Shown in pieces: positions 13,007 to 54,298 of a DNA stretch of 64,000 nucleotides (the first letter of the stretch is position 1; each line of letters starts with the position of its first letter). Source of the stretch: Tridacna crocea (Eukaryota > Mollusca > Bivalvia > Cardiida > Cardiidae); contig OX031060.1 in NCBI GenBank assembly GCA_943736015.1, forward strand, positions 13,281,501-13,345,500, given 5' to 3'. The notes under the pieces were generated by a model. That model made no database searches and was not told where the DNA came from. It saw only the letters and a list, made by a program, of their open reading frames with translations. A program made the position numbers and the translations under genes.

Positions 13007-13475
13007 ACTGTTAATAAACGACTAGATTTTAGACTTGCCCAAATTCAAAGCATTTGCAGACGACATATGGCCTGCAACACACGAAAAGGGGCATTCGGAC
13101 ATTTGCGTAAAGTGTCGTCTCGGATCAGCCTGCGCAGTCCGCGCAGGCTGATCCGAGACGGCACTTTACGTTTTCATGGTATTTTCTGTTTTGCACAAGT
13201 CCACTGTAGCACAAAATCTAATGTAATCGTAAAGTGCCGTCTCGGATAAGCCTGCGCGGACTGCGCAGGCTCATCCGAGACGACACTTTATGCAAATGTC
13301 CGAATGCCCCATTTCGAGTTTTGCATACCAATTATAGGTATGACTCAAATGATCAGTTTTGTGTAAAAATGGGTAAAGGAGAAAATGCTGGTTATCAGCA
13401 TTTCTTCTTTTTTCACAGTGTTTTCAAATGCCTTTACCTCAGGGTCTTAAGAACTTGGGAATGTTTCGTGAAAGG
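13007..13475 (+). mobile_element. Family A MITE split by a family B element
   Basis: The left arm through GCAGACGACA ends at about 13066. The right arm with the AGGAGAAAATGCTGG hairpin resumes after about 13329 and ends at TTAA 13476-13479. Confidence 0.72.
13067..13329. mobile_element. Family B inverted-repeat element
   Basis: Ends GGCCTGCAACACACGAAAAG and inverted GGTATGCAAAACTCG. Contains two GC-rich palindromes (GCCTGCGCAGTCCGCGCAGG) flanked by GTAAAGTGTCGTCTCGGAT. Confidence 0.72.
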
Positions 13476-18589: not shown

Positions 18590-19420
18590 AGGATATCGAG
18601 AAATAGCAGTGAAAATATTTAGAGGATATTTATTTTTTTCGGTGAAAGATCGAAATTTATTTCATCGAGTGGACACCATCGATAATATTTTCACGAGTGG
18701 CACAGCCACGAGTGAAAATATTACCGATGGTGTTCACGAGATGAAATAAATTTCGATCTTTCACCGAAAAAAAAAAAACAAACAAATATTCTATTTATTT
18801 TATGCTTTTAACCCTTTCTGGGAGGAGCTTTATCAAAATTCAGTACAGTTCTTTTTCTTTATTCCCCGTGGCGTACCCCTACCGCATAGCAACGTTACCT
18901 CAAGCGCGAGAAATCTAAGGTATGTGACGTCATATTTCCCATCTGGTTGTTAGGCACGCGCAATTTACCTAGGCGACAAGAACGTGAAAATCGGTATTTT
19001 CACTGATGATACCAGTGTAAGATCGAAAAATATTTTCACTGCTATTTCTCGATATCCTACCAGAAAGCATGAAATAATTTTCGATCTTACACGCCATGGT
19101 ACCACCAGTGAAAATACCAATTTTCACGTTCTTGTTGCCTAGGTGAATTGTGCGTGCCTGACAACCAGATGGGAAATATGACGTCATATACCTTACATTT
19201 CTCGCGCTTGACGTAATATTGTAATACGTTGTTACGCGGGAGGGGTACGCCACGGGGAATAACGGAAAAGAACTGTAGTGGATTTTGATAAAGCTTCTCA
19301 CAGAAAGGGTTAACAGCATGAAATAAGTAGAATATTTTTTTTTTCGATGAAAGATCGAAATTTATTTCATCTCGTGAACACCATCGGTAATATTTTCACT
19401 CGTGGCCGCGCTAATCGTAC
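18590..19420. mobile_element. Large family E inverted repeat, about 0.8 kb
   Basis: Arms of about 300 bp fold around 19055. They contain TGACGTCATA, CCCCGTGGCGTACCCCT/AGGGGTACGCCACGGGG and AACCCTTTCTG in mirrored order. Inner smaller hairpins carry GGTGAAAGATCGAAATTTAT. Confidence 0.72.
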
Positions 19421-19664
19421 AAAACAAATATCCTCTATTTCTCTGGCAATTGGGAGGTTAACGTATTAGCGTGATGCATGATACTCAGCATGTCGTCACG
19501 TAATTATAAAACCGTAAAAATCCATTTTGGATCGGCAAAAAGTATCCACCTAGGTCAGCCTGTGCAGTTCCCGCAGGCTGTCTCGAGATTTCTTTAAAAG
19601 GAGCCTTATAATTTTAAGAACAGTAAACCGGCGATGAAATGCACCGCGGGGGTGCGTATCAAGC

Positions 19665-24656: not shown

Positions 24657-27600
24657 CTGATAAAAAAAATGAATAAAGAAATAACATTAAAAAAAGAGTA
24701 CAGGTTTAAAAAATCGAACATGTAGTTGAGAATGATTGTAGAAGACTCTTGCACAGCATGCTGTAACTGAATCAGCAGTGCCTTAACCGTTTATCACACA
24801 ATCCCGATTTTCAACACCCCCGTGAAAGAAGCCTTTTGAAAACATTGAGGGAAAAGGAGAAAATGCTGGTTACCAGTATTTTCTCCTTTTCCCACATTGT
24901 TTTCTTCCCTTCCTAAATCAAATTTCAATTCTTTAGTCACATTAATTTTGTCGTCTGCAGAGGCTTTCAATTTGGACTCGTCCAAAATTTTGTCGTTTGT
25001 TAAATAATTAGGCAAACAGTACAATTTAGGCTTAAACAGAAAGACACTAATGATAAAATGTGATTTGAGAGGTCTACAGCAAACAGTATGGATAAAATTC
25101 GAATTTCGAATCACCGTACCGTAAAACGTCGGTCAGACTTTGACAAACATTTTGGCTCAGAGCTTGATTGTAGTATAGCATATTTAAGATGACTTCATAA
25201 GCAGTCTATAAACAAGAACTGAACATAGGTAAAGAAAGGGAAACTTTATAACAACGTCTGCTTTACGGCTTTGATAGCCATCTACAAGATTACAAATCAA
25301 AGCGTTGAGAACGCTGTTGAGGTATTTTTCAAGGAAACCATTGTGTGGAATTAATGATTTGAACTAAAAGAGAAATACATGAAGTATTCAGATATTGGCT
25401 TGAAATCCAACCTGAACCTACTTGGCAAATGAATACCTTTTAATTTTGGTTAAGGGAGAGTTTTCATGACACAGTTAGGATTATTTGTGTATTAGTGGTC
25501 TCCCTTCGATCATTATGAGGAGTAAGAAGTAACGTCCCTTGACAGTAGGTTGCATGATGGATAGAAAGAAAAACCATGTGAATATGAAATTAAGTTTGTT
25601 GAAGTCTATAATTTTGAAATATCTTTGGTCGTTGAAATTTAATTTGTGACATTACTATAAATTATTTCGATCTATTAAATATTCATGCCCAATTAAATGG
25701 AACAGCGCGTAATCATGAGATAAACAAGCCATGGGATGAACTGGTTTTGGAAAGAAAAAGCCGAGGACCAAGCTATCGGTAGACAAATTATGTATCACTG
25801 CACCAAAAGAAGGCTATGAGCGAGTGAAGCTATTTTCAATAAAAAAATTAGTATTTCCACGATCGATTATATCTTATTATATCTTAACATGGCATTTCTA
25901 ATTACATATCCGAGTACTACCGAAAAACTCATTTGCCTGAGAAAAATTGAGTATAATTCGGTTTATTCCCTTCGGCTTTGCACAAAATACGATACATGGT
26001 CTTCAAAGTTCAGTACTGAACTCATGGTGGTATTGTCTTTGAGAAATACCACAAAAATTAACAAAATGTAGTATTACATGCAATGCAAGTGACTTTTCGA
26101 TAACAATAATAGAACAGAAAATTTCCACGGAAACAGACCAAAGAAGAATTTTACATACACAATCCCTCTAATCTATTTGTCACGACAATTCTACGGATGT
26201 TGTAGGATTCTTTTAAAGTGACCTTCCACCAGGGGTTTCTGTCATTTCCGTTATGATAACACCGGTTGACGTTATGACGCCCATCCTTAATGCCATTTAG
26301 CGCATACTGTGGGGCACCGCCCCAACCGGAAGTCGAAGCCTCCACACTCAAATATCCTTCCGTTAAGTCGTAGGCTACATGTGCAAGATAAAAAAAACAA
26401 AAACGCTGTCAGAGCAGTGGACATTTTAGACCCATCGACTAATTTACAAATCTTATCTAGATGTAGAGAGTAACGACGTCGAATTGGTTAAACCAGTTAC
26501 TTCAGGATATCAGACGTTGTATTACTCTCAAATTTAGACAAATCTTCAGAATAAGACTAAAAATGTTCTTAAGAATAGTCGGTGAATATGGAACCAGGGC
26601 ATGTATTAAGCAACCATTCGCATTTACAGTCTTCGCCTAGTTCTGAAATAGTTTGTAAAACTCTAAGTAACGTTTATTCGGATTGGCTAAAGCAAATACT
26701 AACCAAACTCCTTACAAAGAAGGACTAGTTTAAATAAAAAGCATTTACAGATGAAAAAATAAACGCGACACAAAAACTGAAATCTGTTTTTGAAAAGGTT
26801 AGAAAACACTGTCGGAAAGGAAGAGAACGCTGGTTGTTACCAACATTTGCTTCTTTTCCGACAATGTTCTCTACAGAAGTTTTCCTTTCAGGCCTTTAAA
26901 ACTAGTGTCAGTGTGGTAAAGGGCTACCCAATTAACCCATTACCACTCAATCCCTACTTTTGACGCCCTGAGAAAGAAGCCTTTTGAAAACACTGTATGA
27001 AAAGGAGAAAATGCTGGTAACCAGCATTTTCTCCTTTTCCCACAGTGTTTTCTATCCTTCCCAGAACAAATTTCTATTTTTCGGTCACTTTTATTTTGTC
27101 GTCTGCAAATGCTTTCAATTTGGACCAGTCCAAAATTTTCTCGTGTGGTAATGAGTTAAGCGTTGTCTTACCAGAGCTCTAGGTAAGAGAAATTGATGGA
27201 ATTCTTAATCCATTATCTCTCTTCCAAGTCCTATGTTGTGGGTACTCATTAGAATCGTCTCAATGAGACTATCCTAATGAGTACCAATAACTTAAGGTAG
27301 AGTAGAAAATTAATGACATTTTCAATTTTAAAATCAAAATCAATCCCTAACTCTTGAGCTCTGCTCTATCCTCGTAATATAAATGAGACTAGAACTGCAG
27401 TTTAGAATGGATGTTTAATAATGGTTTTCTGCCCGTAATATTGTATCAAATTCTTAACCCGAGAAAAAAAAAACGAATAATTATCTCTCTCTGTTGTAGT
27501 GCCGTCTTGATCTTTTTGTTTTGCATCTCTAGTCACATGCCCGAGTAATAAGTTTGAAGAGGTCAGCGAAATCTACTATGATATCTAATATACAACTTCC

Positions 27601-30600
27601 AACTTAATCGTTCTATAAGACTTTCTAAGCAGGAAGCAAAAGACAAGCAGATATAACAAGAAATTGCTATTTTGTTCTAGCTTACTTTTCTTGCCATTTA
27701 AAATCACTAAGTATGGTGATAGATTCTTTTTCCCCTTCAAACGTTTCTCTTCAGTAAAACTTGAAGGGCCTCTCAGAGAATTGTGAGATTTGACAATGTG
27801 TAGAAAAATTCTTTGTACAGCACGTGGATTTCCACAGATTTTCCAGGTTTACAAGGCTATTATTGTTTAAAAATCTGTGTCAAAAAAAAAAAGAAATAGG
27901 TAAAGAAATGTGACACTCACTTCTCCAATCGCAGCTTCCAGAATGGTTAGCAGGACACAGACAGGTAAAGTCATTCAACCCATCCACGCAAGTAGCGTTT
28001 ATACAGGTGTTGTTCGCGCAGTCGTCGATATCTGGATATGAACAATTGAAACCATATAGTATGTTCGAAGTAACGATTCAATCAAGTGGTTTTTGAACAT
28101 GCGTTTTTCATATAGCCCTCTCGATACCTCCGAATACGATTCAACAACCTTTATGTTACAAGAACTATGGAACGCCATAGCTGTCATATGTTGATACATT
28201 TCGAGTTGTAGTATTTAAACAAACTTTTTTTGTGTCATGAAATGCATTATCTCGTCAGCTAAGATAGTACTTTTCTCAATACATGATTTAATTTGTTTGA
28301 AATAAATGCTAAGTTGTCGACATCTATACTTATTATACCTCAACACTATCTTATAATGTTAATGGAATGAGAGATCTGCTTGCTTCTTTGCGTTGTTATG
28401 TTGAAAGACAAAGATGACTTGTCAAATTCTGTTACTGTTTGGTCGATGCGCTGTGTTATTGTGTCCAACACACGAAACTTTTTACTATGTCAATCAGACG
28501 TGTTGTTGCGTTAGCGTGGTACCAAGAGTTACATTACCATGTTGATCTGTTCATAGGCCATATTGATAGGTCAACTATTTGTTTCGTTGGGTTAAAAACA
28601 AAGGTAAATATATGTCTCCTTACTACTTCTGTTTGTGCGTAAACTATGTTGACTGGACTACTATTCAGGTCGTTGAGTTAAAAAAACACGGTTAGCTTGT
28701 CAATCAGTTGTGTCGTTATGTCTATACACCATGTTGTTGTTGTTTTGATATAACATGTTGACCGGTAGATTATTTGCGCTGTTAGGTTAAAGGTGGCCCT
28801 TCAGATTTTGCGAGCATGTTGACCGGTCGTCCCTTTGTGTTTTTAGGTTAAGAAACAAAGTTGAGTTGTCAACAGTTAGATCATTATGTCTACATGTCAT
28901 CCTATTGCGTTCAAAAGAAATGTTAACTGGTTGATTCTTTGTGTTGGTTGGTCTGTGAACAATGTCAGTTCATCAGACAGCTGTATTATGATGTCTACAC
29001 GCCAATTTATTGTCTTTATTTGACATCTTGAATGGCTGAGTCCTTGTGTTGTTGGGTTAAAAATCAAAGTTGTTATGTTTGCATGCTGCCTTATTATGTT
29101 CATTTAGCATACTCACTGGTCGACTATTTGCATTGCTGAGTTAAAAGATTGAGTTGTTGTGTCTGCGTGCTGCGTTGTTGCTGCGTTGTTGTGTTTATGA
29201 GACATGTTAATAGGTGGATTTTTGGTGTTGTATGGTTAGTATACAAAATTAACGAGTCAGATAGTTAAATTAACAAGACTTAGTCTTTACGCCATGTTAT
29301 TGTGTTCATAAGCCATGTTGCCTAGTCTAGTCTATATACCTTTGGGTTACCAAACAATTTTGGGTTCTCTAATGGTTGAATTACTATGTTCACATAGCTT
29401 TTTATTGTGTTCATTTGACATGTTGACTGATCGACTGATAGTGTTGTGTGGTCAAACAACAAAGTTAAATTATCAAAAAGATGTATTATTACGTCTACGC
29501 GCCATGTTGTTGCGTTCACTGGACAAGTTGACTGGTGGACTTTCTGTTTTGATTTGTTAAAAGCAATTCTGAGTTGTGGAATAGTTGTACTTATATGTCT
29601 ACAAAGCATGTCATCGTGTTAATAGGATATAATTATAATAACGCCGCATGCAGGCATACTAGCTTAGTTTTGTGACACAAAAACACAACTAGTGACCAAT
29701 CAATGTGTCACGTGAACACAACAACGTAGCACTTAGACATAATACCTTTATTTCTCAACCAAACAACATGAAGATCAACCAGTCAACTTAGTGTACTAAA
29801 GCAATAACACGACTTGTAGACATAATAATACAACTGTTTAACAAGCTTACACTGTTTTTAAATCCAACAAAAATAAGAATCGACCAACCAACATGTCCAA
29901 TGTAAACAGTAACGAAGGACACAGACATAATAACTTGTATTTGAACACGGCAACACAAATAGTCCACCACACAGCCTTTCCAACGGACACAATAACGTGT
30001 CGAGTAGAATTGGTGACTTGACCATTTGACCACTTAACTTTGTTTTTTAAGCCAACAACACAGAGGGTCGACATGGCAACACCTCAAATGAACACAACAA
30101 AATGTCATGTAGATATAGCAATAAAACCATTTGACCAACCAACACTGTTTTTTAACCGTCCAACACAAATTACCGACCAGTCAGCATTGCTAATTCACGC
30201 AATAACATAAGGTGTAAACATAATGATTCAACTGTATGACAAGTCACCATTCTTTTCTGACCAAACAACACAAAGAATCGACAAGTCATCATGTCTCCTT
30301 GACATAGCAACAACATATGAAGACATAATAATACAACGGTATAACCAGTCAACATTGCTTTCAACCCCATAACTTCATGTATTTAGCATACCACATGCCA
30401 GGTAGACATATTAAAATAATGGTTCGACAAAGTGAAAATTCATACCAACAAAACACCTCAAATTGCAGTAACTTATGGCAGCTATGGCGTTCCATAGAGA
30501 ACCTTTTAAACGTTTAAACGCGTGCTAAACACTCATCGGTTTCTGAATGTTTACACTGGTGCTGTATTATTTACTCAGTTGCCAACAGAAACGTACAAGG

Positions 30601-33600
30601 CTTTCGTATATCATGTTTATCATGTTTAAAAAAGTCGAAATATAAACTGAATACCACTTGTTCGTCTTTAAAATGATTGTGATATTAGAATCAAAGTGTT
30701 GAGAACGCTGAAGTGGTATTCGTCAAGGAACCCATTGTGTGAAATTGATAGTTTGAAAGAAAAAGAGACATTTTGTTCAAATACTGGCTTAAAAGTCAAC
30801 CAAATATTGGCATAAAAGTCAACCCACTAGGCCAATGAATACCTTTTCGGCTGATGGGAGAATACTCATGACAAAGTCTGGATTATTGTGTATTACTGAT
30901 GTTCCTTGGTCATTAGGAGGAATTATGAGAACGCCCTTTGACAGTAGAATGCATGATGGATAGAGAGAAAAACCATGTGCATATATCGAATAAAATTAAG
31001 TTTGTGGCTGGAAGCTATAATTTTGAAATATCTTTAGCCGTTAACATTTAATTCCCAACATTACAATAATTTTTTTCGATCTATAGATATTCATGAGCAA
31101 TTAAATAGAGTAATGTGCATTCATAGGATGAACAAGCCATGGGACGAACTGGTTTTGGAACGAAAAAGCCCAGGGTCAATAGGCAAATTTTGTATCATTG
31201 CGCCAATAAAAGGCTATGAGCGAGTGAGCTATTTTCAATCATAAATAGGTATTTCAACGATTGATAGCCTCACCCAGTGTATTTCAACATCACATATCAA
31301 ATAACATATCTGATTGCTACCGAAAAACTCATTTGCCTGAAAAAAATTGAGTTTAATTTATATTATAGGTTTATTTCCTTCGGCTTTGCACAAACTACGA
31401 CACATGGTCCTCAAAATTCAATCTTGAATTCATAGTGGTATTGTCTTCGACAAATACCACAAAAATTATCTCGTTACGATATATTTCACTAATCGATAGC
31501 ATGAAGTACCCAAAAACTACACTTACTTTTGTCACAGTATGTTCCCTCGAAGCCTGCGTTACAGATACATGTGTATCCATTGACAGCATCAGAACACGTA
31601 CCATTCACACACAGATTGGTCTCACATTCATCGATGTCTATCATTAAGATATCAATGCTAATTATACAATGAATAACAACAAAAAACTGCAATAAGAATC
31701 ACATTGGCGCTAACATGTACAGGGGTACGGATGGACGGAGCGACTATGATTTCAAAGATATTAATCATTCTCCACTAAAACTTATGTTGTGGGTACTCAT
31801 TAGAATCGTCTCATCGAGACGATTGTAATGAGTACCCACAACATAGGGTTTGAAAGAGAAATGATGGACTTAGAATACAATCACTCCCTCTTATCTGGAG
31901 CTTTGAAGCATCCGATACAGTCACTTTGAACCTGCTGTACATAACGCTCAGTTCCACCACATCTTCGCGAGCCAAGGTTACGTTCACTACGAGGATCTTA
32001 CCTTGGCGGATCGAGCCCATTTCAAGATTTCCGCGATACGCTCCCTATTGCATGTTGCTTATTATCGCCCTTTACATCATATTTCTTATGGCCAATGAAA
32101 TACCGTTTTACAAACCGCTTACGAATGCAATAATTCAACATGAAGCAATGACCACAAACGTACTTCGACATTTCATGGTCAGGTGCTGGGATGTAGTTTA
32201 GTTTAAACATATTTATTTTCCCTCAAATTTACATGGAAATGGGGTTGGGTCACAAGTTATAACAACTTAGAAATCGACCCTCCCCCTACAATATAATGAA
32301 TTTACAAGTGTTCCACAACTAATTATAATACACAAGAAAGAGATATAGAGAGAAGGAGAGACAGACAGATAGACAGACAGATAAACAGACAGACAGAGAG
32401 TCAGAACGACAGACAGACAAACATACAAACAGACAGACAGACAGAGATTTTGTCCATTTGCTCACTATAGTCAAAAGGAAAAGTCAGATCATACGACAGT
32501 ATGCTTATATCAAGTAAATCGGCCAGTTTGTTGAATATACTCCTGGACTGATACAAATAATTCTGAATTTTCTCGATCTGTTAGGGATGGTTTGCCAAAA
32601 AGAAGATCATCTACATTCAATGGATTAAGGTGCTGAATAGAGTTAAATAAGTGCAGTCTTTGGATAACAAAAAGATTGCATCTGAAAAAATAGTGTTCGG
32701 CGTCTTCAGATTCCACCGAGCACGTGCAAAGCTGACTGTTACGAAGATAATTATGAAACAAATCACTATTTACACGGCTGGGAATCACGTGACACAACAA
32801 CAACAACAATGACCGTTATTTGAAAAAATTCCCCGACTTCAGGTAAGAAAATCTTCAATAATTCCGTTAATACATGACCGATTGGAATTTGGTTTGAAGC
32901 AGAGAAGGCGGAAGGACTCCAGGGATTTGCTTGATGTGTTAGATTTTTCAAACAACACCTGATAAAAAAGTTATTGACGAGCAAACAAATTTTTTACCCT
33001 GGATGATTTGTTTGCTCGTCAATAACTTTTTTATCAGGTGTTGTTTAAAAATTCTAACACATCAAGCAAATCCCCGGAGTCCTTCCGCCTTCTCTGGTTC
33101 AAACCAAATTCCAATCGGTCACGTATTAACGGAATTATTGAAGATTTTCTTTCCTGAAGTTGGGGAATTTTTTAAAATAACGGTCATTGTTGTTGTTGTT
33201 GTGTCACGTGATTCCCCGCCGTGATTTAGTTCACTGCATTTATTCCTAATCCGGGCATGCATAACTGATAAGAAACGATTGCCTTCAAGGTAATAGGCGG
33301 GGACAGGGGTTATTGGGAACCTACTTGAAATTAATTTTTTAAAAGTCGAAAACGAATAAACATTTTTCTGGTTTTCATTTAAATTGTTCCAAATATATAT
33401 TGAAGAAGGGATACAAGATTTTTGAGAAATTGTAGTGCGAGTAGATATGTTTCTTAAATCAGTAATGTTTCTAAGAGCATATTGCGTTGTGTCTGCTATA
33501 AGTGGCGGAATCAAGTCTGCAATGTATTCGGGAACCATCTGATGGGTTGCTTTATACATAAAAAACATTTTTTGGGTTTCCCGCCTATCTTTCAAAGATT

Positions 33601-52100: not shown

Positions 52101-54298
52101 TTTTCTTGTGAAAAGCAATTGTTACTCTATCAGAGAATGGACCTTATTATTAGCAGACAATAAAAATAAGGCCGATGATATTTACCTGCCTGTCGTGTAC
52201 ACACTGAAGAAAATTCATACTGCCAGGCCGACTGTCGTGTACTCGATGAAGGAAAACTCGTTGAGTGCCCGACAGTTGTGCCCGGACTGATGAAATATTG
52301 TCTTGTAGGCACGACTTGCGTGCGCGCTACTTCCAATTTCTTCATTCAGAACACAATGCGGTTGTGTCCGCACATAAGAATCAGACTCTAACGTACACTG
52401 TGTATGATTCACATACCAGTCTGTGTTTTGGTCCAACCCATTAACACAGTGTACGTAAGATCCCGCTTCTTTAGTGCGGACACGACCGCATCATATACTG
52501 AGTGAAGAAATCGGAAATAGCGCGCACGAAAGTCGTGCCTTCAAGACGATATTTCATCAATCCGGGCACAACAGTCGGGCACCCAAGAAGTTTTCCTTCA
52601 TTGAGTACACACCAGTCGTCCTCGCAGCATGAATTTTCTTCAGTGTGTACACGGCGGTCGGGTAAATAGTCACTTTGTAAAAATAAAAATGCTTACTACA
52701 GCTACAATTTTACCAGCATCTTTTCAAATGGCTCTCTATGCGACAAAATTTCAAATAGCAGCTAATATAGTGGGCATATTGTTAGATAAATGTTTAATAT
52801 TTAACATCACACACACTGTGCAGCAAAATACCAATTAAATCAACAGAAATTTACTTTTTTTCCCCAATGTAAATAAATCTACTATTATTTGTAAACAACT
52901 CACATGGCGGCTTCCATTTAAGATATGCACACTCAACAGTATTTGAATTTTGTACAGTCTGGTTCTCTAACCCTAACAACCATTTTCGTACAAGGTACCT
53001 TTGTCAATTTCCAAATGAAACGTCATTTCCAAATGAAACGTCCTGAAGCATGTCAAGAGATACTGCGATTTCTGTGCATTGATTGTATCACCATGTTTTG
53101 ATTTCCGGTGAAGTAAGTCAACAATTATATAAGTTGAAAAGCACAGATTTGCACGAAGGTAAGATGATATTAACTAACATCAGTTTTTTTGTAAAGATTA
53201 ATCATTTATCTTTCTTTCTATGCCCATTTTATTAGCTGTAACTGGAAATTTTGCTGCAGAGAGTCATTTGAGAAGACGCCAGTAAAATTGTATGCATGCA
53301 TTCCAGATACTTTTGATGAAGGTTGCTGTGAAGGTTTGTGGAGACCAATAATAAAATTAGCATCGGGGCAAACCTACAGGCTGAAGGTAAAGTCTACTGA
53401 GCTTGTAACAACCTAGTCTCAATATAGAGACGCTCCTATGATATTTTTGATATTTTGACATTTATTGTACACCGTACCGTATCAAGTCCATATTAAATTT
53501 TCCAGAAGCAAATATAGAGCGCTATACTGACTTTCTGTTTCGTCAGTTTTATCGGCATTGCAGCGAAATATATTTAACTTTTAGTAATAAACATGACTAA
53601 AAGTAAATTGTTAAACCATACATTACATAAAGAGCTTGTAGGAGTCGTTTAAAACATGTTTATCTCCGAAAAATCACTGATGAAATTTGTCATGCGTGGT
53701 CGCCATTTTGTATGTTTTCGGGAACGTAAACAAGTCGACTAACTGATGAAAATAGTGTTTTTCTCACATTCAGCAATTAAATTGAAAGTATTTGTATTTC
53801 AAACGAAGGAATATTGAATACACAAGCAACAGGTATGTTTAAATCCTGGTTTTGTGCTCTATTTGCGAAATTATAAGAGTTCAAACTTGTGCACAAAATC
53901 TGTGCGGAACTTTCAACTGATTTTGTCCGGATTGTCTCTGTGCCCAGAGGCGACCAGTCAAAAAGTAACATCGCCTTTGGGGACAATTATCTGTACTAGT
54001 AACAACCCAGCCTGTTTAGTTAATTGTATAACTACTTATTCCAGTAGCACAAAAAGAAAGGCTGTGACAAGGTCTCACAAAGAAACAGTTGAAAAGGTAA
54101 AGCAGTTTTGTTGTTTGCTTTACAGTGAAAAAAATCGGGAGGGGGTGGGGGGCATTATCCGGAATACAGTTCGTATCCGATTTGCCTGCAAGTTATTTTC
54201 TTAGTTTTACTTAAATTTTAGTCGCAATTCTCCTTTACCTGACTCCGTTCTCGGTGGGATTTGGCTCGAGCTTTATGTGCATTCTTCAGTGAAGACAT
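40047..54298 (-). CDS. UTP11: UTP11, U3 snoRNA-associated small-subunit processome protein, complete eight-exon gene
   Basis: Utp11 is a nucleolar component of the small-subunit processome, acting with U3 snoRNA in 18S pre-rRNA cleavage. Exons in transcript order are 54239-54298, 51374-51435, 48313-48415, 46841-46957, 46025-46118, 44357-44484, 43038-43148 and 40047-40136. They join with consistent phases into 765 nt (254 residues plus stop), against about 253 residues in vertebrates. Family landmarks in order: AKSHRERSQ at the N-terminus; KHLGILEKKKDYKLRA; RNPDEFYFKM; TQDQNYINMKR; KIERLKSSLHL; FQTHPALLGRRYNRPTLDSL; KKRIEREQQLTVTAQKM; and the basic C-terminus YKWKFKRKR. The protein is lysine and arginine rich with likely coiled coil near residues 189-225. 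The introns are full of MITEs. An AATAAA lies 43 bp past the stop. Confidence 0.95.
40527..40600 (+). repeat. tRNA-like remnant
   Basis: TGGTGTAATGGATAACATCA and TCGTTCGAGCCG resemble boxes A and B. The acceptor and anticodon stems do not pair, so it is a decayed tRNA or SINE head. Confidence 0.45.
41478..41552 (-). repeat. tRNA-like remnant
   Basis: Minus strand GTGGTGCAATGGTCAAAGG and GAGTTCGAGTCAC resemble boxes A and B without a sound cloverleaf. Confidence 0.45.
43038..43148 (-). CDS. UTP11: UTP11 exon 7
   Basis: This phase 0-0 exon of 37 codons encodes EAEAMKRTKYNELKKRIERE, then QQLTVTAQKMERKKQLL. The acceptor ATGAAG has a weak pyrimidine tract, but the reading frame and homology fix it. 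Confidence 0.87.
43370..43530 (-). mobile_element. Family A MITE fragment in UTP11 intron 6
   Basis: GAAAACACTGGGAAAAGCAG with partner arm; ends lost. Confidence 0.58.
43895..44085 (-). mobile_element. Family A MITE, diverged, in UTP11 intron 6
   Basis: Hairpin shortened to GAGAAAATGCATTTTCTC; ends eroded. Confidence 0.62.
44154..44340. mobile_element. Family C palindromic MITE in UTP11 intron 6
   Basis: GGGTTCGTATTCAGCAACCA to GTTGTTGAATACAAGGCCTG. Confidence 0.62.
44357..44484 (-). CDS. UTP11: UTP11 exon 6
   Basis: Acceptor CCATTGCAG precedes AKDFSAAKHFQTHPALLGRR, then YNRPTLDSLKRGDFVDMEME. Exit is phase 0 at donor GTATTC. Unspliced reading would stop two codons later, so splicing here is required to reach the C-terminal exons. 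Confidence 0.9.
44956..45171 (-). mobile_element. Family A MITE, 216 bp, TTAA-flanked
   Basis: TTAA at 44952-44955 and 45172-45175; diverged hairpin core. Confidence 0.8.
45246..45775 (+). repeat. Family F dispersed repeat in UTP11 intron 5
   Basis: Includes GAACAAGTTTCCAAGTGCCC, TGACGTCACTGAAACCTTGG and ATTATCCAATCAGATCAAG. Confidence 0.65.
45784..46003 (+). mobile_element. Family A MITE, 220 bp, TTAA-flanked
   Basis: TTAA at 45780-45783 and 46004-46007. The hairpin centre is TCGTTACGAGC, a compensatory change on both arms. It ends 21 bp from UTP11 exon 5. Confidence 0.86.
46025..46118 (-). CDS. UTP11: UTP11 exon 5
   Basis: Acceptor TTTTTGCAG precedes KIERLKSSLHLIEADEKPEN, then IIFVDSKKE. 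It exits in phase 1 at donor GTATCC. A MITE ends 21 bp beyond the exon. Confidence 0.92.
46529..46752 (-). mobile_element. Family A MITE, 224 bp, TTAA-flanked
   Basis: TTAA at 46525-46528 and 46753-46756; hairpin loop extended to GTAATAATAAGC. Confidence 0.87.
46841..46957 (-). CDS. UTP11: UTP11 exon 4
   Basis: This 117-nt phase 0-0 exon encodes DGEHQLRETSKTDHTDDQIK and then LIYTQDQNYINMKRSSEMK. Its acceptor is only 16 nt from the end of a family A MITE. Confidence 0.92.
47003..47223 (+). mobile_element. Family A MITE, first nested copy, 221 bp
   Basis: Starts CTCTTTCCCAAAAGACAAAA and ends GATTGTTTGGGAAAGGG, with TTAA at 46999-47002 and 47224-47227. Confidence 0.9.
47359..47579 (+). mobile_element. 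Family A MITE, second nested copy, 221 bp
   Basis: Starts CCCTTAACCAAACGACAAAA and ends GATTGTTTGGTAAAGGG, with TTAA at 47355-47358 and 47580-47583. Confidence 0.9.
47655..47846 (+). mobile_element. Family A MITE, diverged, next to the nested trio
   Basis: ACCTTTTTCCAAACTACAAA left end and TTGTTTTGTAAAGGG right end. Confidence 0.68.
48012..48225 (+). mobile_element. tRNA-derived SINE with recognisable tRNA head
   Basis: GTAGCTCAGTGGTAAAGTG (box A) and GGGTTCGAGCC (box B), then GGGCAAGACACTTCAG and tail GAAATAATGTTGAAAAC. The body differs from the GATGATAGTC copies, so it may be a related subfamily sharing the tail. Confidence 0.68.
48313..48415 (-). CDS. UTP11: UTP11 exon 3
   Basis: This exon covers IDAQKKKNTLKYLERQALNR followed by NPDEFYFKMVNTVKK. 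It enters in phase 2 and exits in phase 0 at donor GTATGA. Confidence 0.92.
48578..48798 (-). mobile_element. Family A MITE, 221 bp, TTAA-flanked
   Basis: CCCTTTTCCACACAATCC opens the copy; TTAA at 48574-48577 and 48799-48802. The hairpin core is intact. Confidence 0.88.
48908..48980 (+). repeat. 18-bp tandem repeat, four copies
   Basis: Unit AGTTGCCCATGAGTCTC, last copy diverged, UTP11 intron 2. Confidence 0.8.
49114..50357. mobile_element. UTP11: hAT-like non-autonomous element, 1.24 kb, in UTP11 intron 2
   Basis: The termini are CAAGGTTGGGCGG and, inverted, CAAGGTTGGCAAAAAGCCGG. Both are followed by several TCAATACTGGTC and AACCGGTT motifs. A near 8-bp direct repeat (CCGATAAC before, GCGATAAC two bases after) suggests hAT-type insertion. 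The interior has no transposase. Confidence 0.6.
50418..50914 (-). mobile_element. tRNA-derived SINE, split by a family A MITE
   Basis: Minus-strand copy with Pol III box B-like GTTCAATCCCTGG near 50850, body AATGACTATCAT and tail TTTTTCAACATTATTTC. Interrupted at 50620-50815. Confidence 0.75.
50620..50815 (-). mobile_element. Family A MITE, 196 bp, inserted in a SINE
   Basis: Ends CCCTTTACCACAC and GGAACAGGG with TTAA on both sides (50616-50619, 50816-50819). SINE sequence is contiguous across the insertion. About 25 bp of the right half is missing. Confidence 0.9.
51002..51222 (-). mobile_element. Family A MITE, 221 bp, TTAA-flanked
   Basis: TTAA at 50998-51001 and 51223-51226; core GTAACAAGC at the hairpin centre. 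Confidence 0.88.
51374..51435 (-). CDS. UTP11: UTP11 exon 2
   Basis: Acceptor CTTTTCAG precedes PSSRKHLGILEKKKDYKLRA. Donor GTGAGT leaves two bases for the next codon. This is among the most conserved Utp11 blocks. Confidence 0.93.
51677..51897 (-). mobile_element. Family A MITE, 221 bp, TTAA-flanked
   Basis: TTAA at 51673-51676 and 51898-51901. The right end has drifted to GGTACAGAG. Confidence 0.86.
52179..52668. mobile_element. 490-bp long-arm foldback in UTP11 intron 1
   Basis: Ends TATTTACCTGCCTGTCGTGT and inverted TATTTACCCGACCGCCGTGT. Arms of about 230 bp run to CGTACACTGTGT around a loop of about 35 bp. Confidence 0.76.
53236..53386 (+). CDS. Candidate exon of unknown protein, antisense in UTP11 intron 1
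   Basis: A strong pyrimidine tract and TTAG acceptor precede an open 151-nt frame ending CTGAAG before donor GTAAAG. It reads CNWKFCCRESFEKTPVKLYA, then CIPDTFDEGCCEGLWRPIIK, with seven cysteines. No family is recognised. It could be a chance ORF. Confidence 0.3.
53948..54096 (+). CDS. Second candidate antisense exon in UTP11 intron 1
   Basis: Acceptor TCTCTGTGCCCAG and donor GTAAAG bound an open frame (phase 1 in, phase 0 out) reading EATSQKVTSPLGTIICTSNN and then TKRKAVTRSHKETVEK. Its phase does not join directly to 53236-53386, so an intervening exon would be needed. Unrecognised. Confidence 0.22.
54239..54298 (-). CDS. UTP11: UTP11 exon 1
   Basis: Sixty nt encode MSSLKNAHKARAKSHRERSQ, ending CAG before donor GTAAAG, phase 0. 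The ATG matches the family N-terminus in place and length. Confidence 0.9.

Follow-up and report, generated by a model that had tools for sequence, protein, structure and literature searches.

Most known foldback elements belong to the Mutator superfamily, although there are exceptions, among them Galileo (P superfamily), and a sea urchin foldback is cited in the same source (PMC4079207). The inverted repeats of Galileo measure 0.5–1.2 kb and include tandem repeats with additional binding sites for the transposase (PMC3688188), and those of Tm1, a Mutator/Phantom element of root-knot nematodes, are made of short tandem units of 13–15 bp, the number of which differs at the two ends (PMC3169594). 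IS3EU transposons are described as always having TA..TA ends and usually having 6-bp target duplications, and they group with GingerRoot (PMC10045372). In fungi, 6-bp duplications and TAYGG..CCRTA ends have been reported for IS3EU, and in the TET-bearing fungal families an alpha-kinase gene runs opposite to that of the transposase (PMC12730594); Styx in Zymoseptoria has also been attributed to IS3EU (PMC10853768). No IS3EU foldback was found in the literature searched for IS3EU together with foldback (Repbase not covered), and the one paper listed with both words, PMC8268682, has "foldback" in a cited title.

The element described here lies in a 64,000-nucleotide stretch of the Tridacna crocea genome (contig OX031060.1, positions 13,281,501–13,345,500), referred to below as the window, and is taken, at a probability of about 80%, to be a non-autonomous DNA transposon of IS3EU type with a foldback structure. 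Its 2,331 bp (window positions 28166–30496) are built of long inverted repeats of tandem units with termini and target duplications, as in foldbacks. The left terminus, TATGGAACGCCATAGCTG (28166–28183, plus strand), is followed by a left arm of tandem 21-bp units in a five-member, 105-bp order (28184–29629, plus strand), a center in which unit orientation flips and two left-arm segments score negative (29630–29664, the right boundary being approximate), a right arm with the left arm's 21-bp units reversed (29665–30478, minus strand), and the right terminus, which is TATGGAACGCCATAGCTG on the reverse strand (30479–30496); both arms were delimited by HMM units and autocorrelation. The 18 terminal bases on either side form a perfect inverted pair, and the inverted termini claimed in a first-pass annotation of this DNA are identical over 19/19 bases, the sole inverted 19-mer pair within the element, though the outermost base is flank: positions 28165 (C) and 30497 (G) both lie outside the element, and the former chances to be complementary to the latter here. 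Beyond the termini, the arms match at 32/53 and then at 12/58 bases in ungapped comparison, against a published length of more than 30 bp for IS3EU terminal inverted repeats.

The target duplication of the window copy reads AAGAAC on the left (28160–28165, plus strand) and GAGAAC on the right (30497–30502, plus strand), with 5/6 bases matching, and its length is set at 6 bp because the siblings of the element carry exact 6-bp duplications. A 4-bp AGAA duplication, as first annotated, is therefore wrong, even though its probability by random flanks was 0.006; AGAA is the inner part of AAGAAC/GAGAAC. The 7-mer AACCTTT, which occurs in both flanks, was dropped on the same evidence of the siblings. 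A small terminal hairpin (CTATGG/CCATAG), also annotated at first, does exist but is not conserved, and it was rejected as a functional feature because the ends of families B and C described below, CCGTAG (132 exact places) and CCACAG (L030), disrupt its pairing.

Genome-wide repeat counts are given as lower bounds. The 19-mer end was found at no fewer than 180 + 177 places with up to two mismatches, against 1 + 0 for the reversed pattern in the whole genome, and exact matches to the 18-mer end TATGGAACGCCATAGCTG were found in at least 58 places and to the one-base variant end CCGTAG in at least 132, with no match for the control in either case. These 58 exact places can be joined into 16 adjacent plus/minus pairs, of which 11 span 2,316–2,352 bp; the CCGTAG matches listed (100 of 132) give at least 40 pairs, with spans from 189 to 32,654 bp, and at least 25 of these fall in the range 4.19–5.20 kb. 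The expectation that other genomic copies would share the termini was thus borne out by at least 11 exact-end pairs at the same spacing, the window copy included. The 2.3-kb copies, which lie on several contigs, are collinear from end to end at 91–99% identity by blastn, and 11 of them have a mean pairwise identity of 95.4%, so the element has spread as a complete 2.3-kb unit, both ends included, to no fewer than 10 other sites. The element has probably moved recently, because one sibling (L024, contig C10) is 99.5% identical to it outside gaps (0.9% difference by blastn).

An exact 6-bp duplication flanks 21 of the 29 end pairs read, including all seven of the 2.3-kb siblings read first, six of seven CCGTAG elements other than the giants described below, all three giants, and L033, L040, L042, L043, and L044; L010, L012, L035, and L036 were not read as end pairs and do not enter the count. 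Counted over the 2.3-kb copies, 8 of 11 have an exact duplication. In 7 of the 29 pairs the duplication is absent or unclear, namely L028, L030, the outer and inner pairs of L034, L037, L041, and the 15-kb pair L038/L039; the ends of L037 carry one or two mismatches yet begin with TATGG. The duplications and the siblings together demonstrate that the element has been mobile.

These copies also bear on whether the element might be a dispersed satellite, in which arrays of 21 and 105 bp were spread by recombination and the ends are incidental. Old and diverged units (identity about 0.61), the four tandem termini at 47-bp spacing in L035, and the existence of 21- and 105-bp satellites without transposon assignment in the Pacific oyster would all suit such an origin, which is nevertheless scarcely credible: exact 6-bp duplications abut fixed ends, and copies on several contigs are collinear from end to end. 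For the 2.3-kb family a satellite origin is refuted because of the 6-bp duplications. The oyster satellites in question are CgiSat33 (105 bp) and CgiSat43 (21 bp), whereas CgiSat35 and CgiSat47 are assigned to IS3EU (PMC8268682, table 1), and a link between CgiSat satellites and such 21/105-bp arms is possible. The four tandem termini (L035, 377–535) look as if the end had begun to form a satellite, and in L034 four copies of the 2.3-kb element follow one another almost without a gap, the truncation being alike in two of them. Several other loci were set aside. Large open reading frames (ORFs) in L032 and L033 were considered as possible transposases, but their Pfam matches are to reverse-transcriptase proteins, and they are therefore nested LINE-type retroelements. 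Similarly, the 15-kb end pair on C16 (L038, L039), considered as a transposase-bearing relative, holds one nearly full copy, one partial copy of 493 bp, and, by eye, an LTR-type retroelement. Matches to a 16-mer of the end in viral contigs (nine stretches with one match each) were taken as chance.

The arms of the element have a basic unit of 21 bp. Strong autocorrelation is seen at 21, 42, 63, 84, and 105 bp, with z-scores at 21 and 105 bp of 7.7 and 7.9 in the left arm and 6.9 and 10.4 in the right arm, and a cyclic HMM prefers period 21 by BIC (gain 283, against −509 for 105) when compared with 15 other periods. The 21-mers are of five kinds that succeed each other in a fixed order, kept in 57 of 65 steps, which gives the unit of about 105 bp (5 × 21). 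The two arms differ in unit number: the HMM assigns 71 segments to the left arm and 39 to the right, equivalent to some 14 and 8 of the 105-bp blocks, counts that include a partial segment at each inner end, one double-length segment on the right, and several poor ones. The first-pass annotation had described about 11 forward and about seven reverse-complement units of roughly 100 bp; the orientation of the arms was right, but the basic unit and the count per arm are corrected by these figures. Tandem Repeats Finder reported no array within the element. Units of the same class are about 0.61 identical, with values of 0.605 and 0.618 within the arms and 0.616 between them, and the arms are not homogenized separately because identity within and between arms is equal.

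The units of one element have thus diverged to an identity of about 0.61 while whole copies average 95.4%, and the arms therefore look older than the present copies, having apparently been passed on nearly as a block. Measured against the majority sequence, the 11 copies carry ten distinct indels of at least 8 nt, and one of them, in L040, is the exact loss of one 21-bp unit, which was masked at first by 11 nt that only the window copy has. The other nine measure 8, 8, 10, 11, 13, 13, 14, 16, and 23 nt; an indel of 105 nt is not among them. Change by a single unit happens, but rarely among these copies; the earlier suggestion that the arms can grow or shrink is weakly supported, with one instance in L040, but the 11 copies span 2,316–2,352 bp, and the other nine indels are not unit-sized. 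In 46 neighbor-phased units of the window element, core positions of the 21-mer are conserved at 0.804 against 0.714 (permutation p = 0.0007), a modest excess between units that is in part an effect of base composition, for which a simulation was also run. Core positions vary no less among copies (76/483 against 164/966 variable positions, p = 0.60), which speaks against a binding role for the 21-bp units. The signal within the element is suggestive of selection on the core, but the comparison among copies shows no difference; equal variation is what decay after insertion would give, and past selection is accordingly neither shown nor excluded.

The single-strand DNA fold predicted for the element scores −314, where 10 arm-wise shuffles give −241 (sd 8), and 490 of 778 predicted pairs join the two arms. 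This strong predicted folding between the arms, together with an exon encoding an EGF-like domain on the minus strand (about 27921–28031, with splice-like ends by eye), could be read as a long hairpin serving as a source of small RNA beside an opposite-strand exon and kept for that purpose, a highly improbable explanation, since siblings at other sites argue that the location is incidental. The limits of this exon were set by eye; it is separated by about 135 bp from the element, which is upstream of it and probably sits in an intron. Elsewhere in the window, an ORF with an F5/8 type C (NedA-like) domain is found on the minus strand at 26151–26408, and a second foldback with 21/42-bp units of different sequence at 2368–2752, which was considered as a relative and seems unrelated (0 + 1 matches to the 21-mer model). 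Other inverted repeats of MITE or foldback form lie at 18620–19437, 32773–33223 (arms of 218 nt, 96% complementary), 52179–52668, and 13068–13330.

Shorter relatives of the window element, of 120, 330, and 1,142 bp, share its end and are flanked by exact 6-bp duplications. A model of the 21-mer, with the window element as its only training sequence, was run on the relatives and a control stretch and gave 0 + 4 matches in the 330-bp relative and 4 + 13 in the 1,142-bp relative, and no match in the 120-bp relative. The resulting size series of 120, 330, 1,142, and about 2,330 bp suggests that the arms grew from a short inverted-repeat element, if the direction of change is read correctly. Family B, with the CCGTAG end (L025, L026, L027, L028, L029, L031, and L032), comprises elements of about 5 kb without inserts (4.7–9.8 kb as found), in which 21-bp-periodic inverted repeats of about 1 kb, with 97% agreement between arms (L025 vs. 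L031), enclose about 3 kb of non-repetitive sequence; a remnant resembling SAM matches weakly there (0.003, under the Pfam cut-off). In L028, an element of the CCGTAG type lies between short end remnants of the CCATAG type, with GACAAC outside both remnants. Family C is represented by one element read (L030), which is 4.0 kb in length, has the CCACAG end, and contains strong 21-bp arms. The 21-mer model found 48 + 56 units in family C, where 1.6 would be expected on each strand, 10 + 9 in family B (2.4 expected), and 1 + 0 in the control stretch (1.2 expected). Independently trained 21-mer models correlate with the window motif at 0.90 for L042, 0.80 for family C, and 0.63 for family B, with best reverse-strand values of 0.41–0.44, and family B shares the 21-mer only moderately.

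The window copy has no transposase. A profile search with Pfam rva_4 (PF24764), which we took to be a possible IS3EU core, matched this genome 147 times and 14 control genomes not at all. Among the five best matches, three, on C2, C16, and C17, lie 3–4 kb inside the end TATGGAACGCCGTAGCTG, which is followed by arms of 21-bp periodicity. They belong to three giant DNA transposons with an exact 6-bp duplication and a DDE (rva_4) ORF: C2:7933796–7966449 (32,654 bp), C16:37486040–37518407 (32,368 bp), and C17:32241679–32276077 (34,399 bp), with loci labeled L053–L055 and L064–L069 in G000. A 40-nt end specific to the giants, searched with up to three mismatches, occurs at exactly 3 + 3 places (control 0), which pair into the three elements. 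Their inverted ends are about 98–99% alike (392/400, 205/208, and 174/178 bases identical), and their arms are 82–88% identical to family B; the right arm of the C16 giant is 21-bp periodic, and the right ends of the C2 and C17 giants were compared over 400 and 178 bases. The ends TATGG..CCATA are present in the window element, the 2.3-kb siblings, family B, family C, and the giants wherever both ends were read.

The DDE-type core of the giants, 296 amino acids in length, matches rva_4 at 5.6e-71 and rve at 1e-7 in C2 (rve being just at the cut-off), with similar values in C16 and C17. The residues D53, D110, and E143, invariant in six aligned ORFs of this genome, are probably catalytic, and the only PDB chains matched by the profile of the giants are two retroviral integrase core sequences (7e-5). 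Upstream of the core, the C2 and C17 giants have a 188-amino-acid ORF with SAM (4e-4) and weak HTH matches, and the C16 giant is without a stretch of about 0.9 kb at this place. The opposite strand, which was read for the HECT ORF in the C16 giant only, contains a HECT-domain ORF (8e-8) and a 470-amino-acid ORF with a weak zinc-finger match. The 188- and 296-amino-acid ORFs gave no Pfam match to an HHCC zinc domain, which IS3EU transposases are described as lacking before the core. Elements of 32–34 kb with 6-bp duplications and an integrase-type DDE core, whose only solved matches are retroviral integrase cores (7e-5), also recall Polintons/Mavericks, in which 6-bp duplications and an integrase occur too, and the whole series might be a giant related to these together with its deletion derivatives. 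This is unlikely, as TA..TA ends are reported for IS3EU, and four interior ORFs scanned in the C16 giant comprise one HECT ORF, one weak zinc finger, and two without a match, with no polymerase B, packaging ATPase, or protease among the four.

With an IS3EU-type origin, the CCATAG family would be mobilized in trans by the transposase of the giants or a close one. No transposase-bearing element with an exact CCATAG end was found, the giants ending in CCGTAG; a possible CCATAG-ended giant was noted near C4:58250375, with an exact end 40 kb away. A transposase of the giants' kind would bind the ends of a window-type element and probably also repeated sites in the 21-bp array, which corresponds to two helical turns, and would then cut the element out and paste it with a 6-bp stagger. 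The arms may predate the spread of the present copies, having been amplified out of a short element with inverted repeats in steps of 21 bp and then of 105 bp, and would now be inherited nearly as a block. A tentative extension, against which the odds stand, is that the 21-bp arms are transposase-binding arrays that synapse very distant ends, that one array design is common to the 33-kb HECT-carrying element and its derivatives down to about 330 bp, and that foldback arms thus arose independently, as a device for synapsis, in a third transposase superfamily. A foldback series with IS3EU hallmarks from 120 bp to 34 kb, found with a candidate transposase in one genome, makes it testable whether tandem arms are convergent binding devices or by-products of replication. 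The three DNA transposons of 32–34 kb with exact 6-bp duplications would similarly join the giant eukaryotic transposons reviewed in PMC6431247.

Among known systems, the organization proposed at first, a mobile foldback similar to FB/Galileo, is upheld by the tandem-unit inverted arms, the copies, and the 6-bp duplications. Galileo, of the P superfamily in Drosophila, is alike in its long inverted repeats built with internal tandem units and differs in its ends, its THAP/P transposase, and its longer repeat units. The target duplication of Galileo and the P superfamily is about 7 bp, against 6 bp here. The sea urchin TU and Drosophila FB elements also have inverted repeats of tandem units, but their units, ends, and duplications are other than those found here. 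Tm1 has duplications of 8–10 bp, where those of the present element are 6 bp, and it also differs in its asymmetric terminal motifs, its Phantom-type transposase, and a unit number that varies between elements. Membership of the P (Galileo) or Mutator (Tm1/Phantom) superfamily, whose foldbacks share the architecture of long inverted repeats with internal tandem units (PMC3688188; PMC3169594; PMC4079207), is very unlikely, given 6-bp duplications against the 8–10 bp of Tm1 and Tetris and an rva_4/rve integrase-type domain in relatives that differ by one base in the end. The Mutator- or P-like central transposase that the first-pass annotation had expected was thus not what the transposase-bearing relatives contain: their domain is of the integrase-type DDE kind (rva_4 5.6e-71; rve 1e-7), and their ends and duplications fit IS3EU. 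The ends and the 6-bp duplications (21/29 pairs exact, 5/6 bases in the window copy) are hallmarks of IS3EU, unlike those of Mutator or P, and the element is provisionally filed there on published descriptions. It is like IS3EU/GingerRoot in its TA..TA (TAYGG..CCRTA) ends, its 6-bp duplication, and the DDE transposase of the giants, and unlike them in its foldback arms of 21-bp units, its transposase-bearing form of 32–34 kb, and the upstream segment with SAM-like and weak HTH matches; as a counterpart to the alpha-kinase gene of the TET-bearing fungal families, a HECT-containing ORF lies opposite to the transposase ORF.
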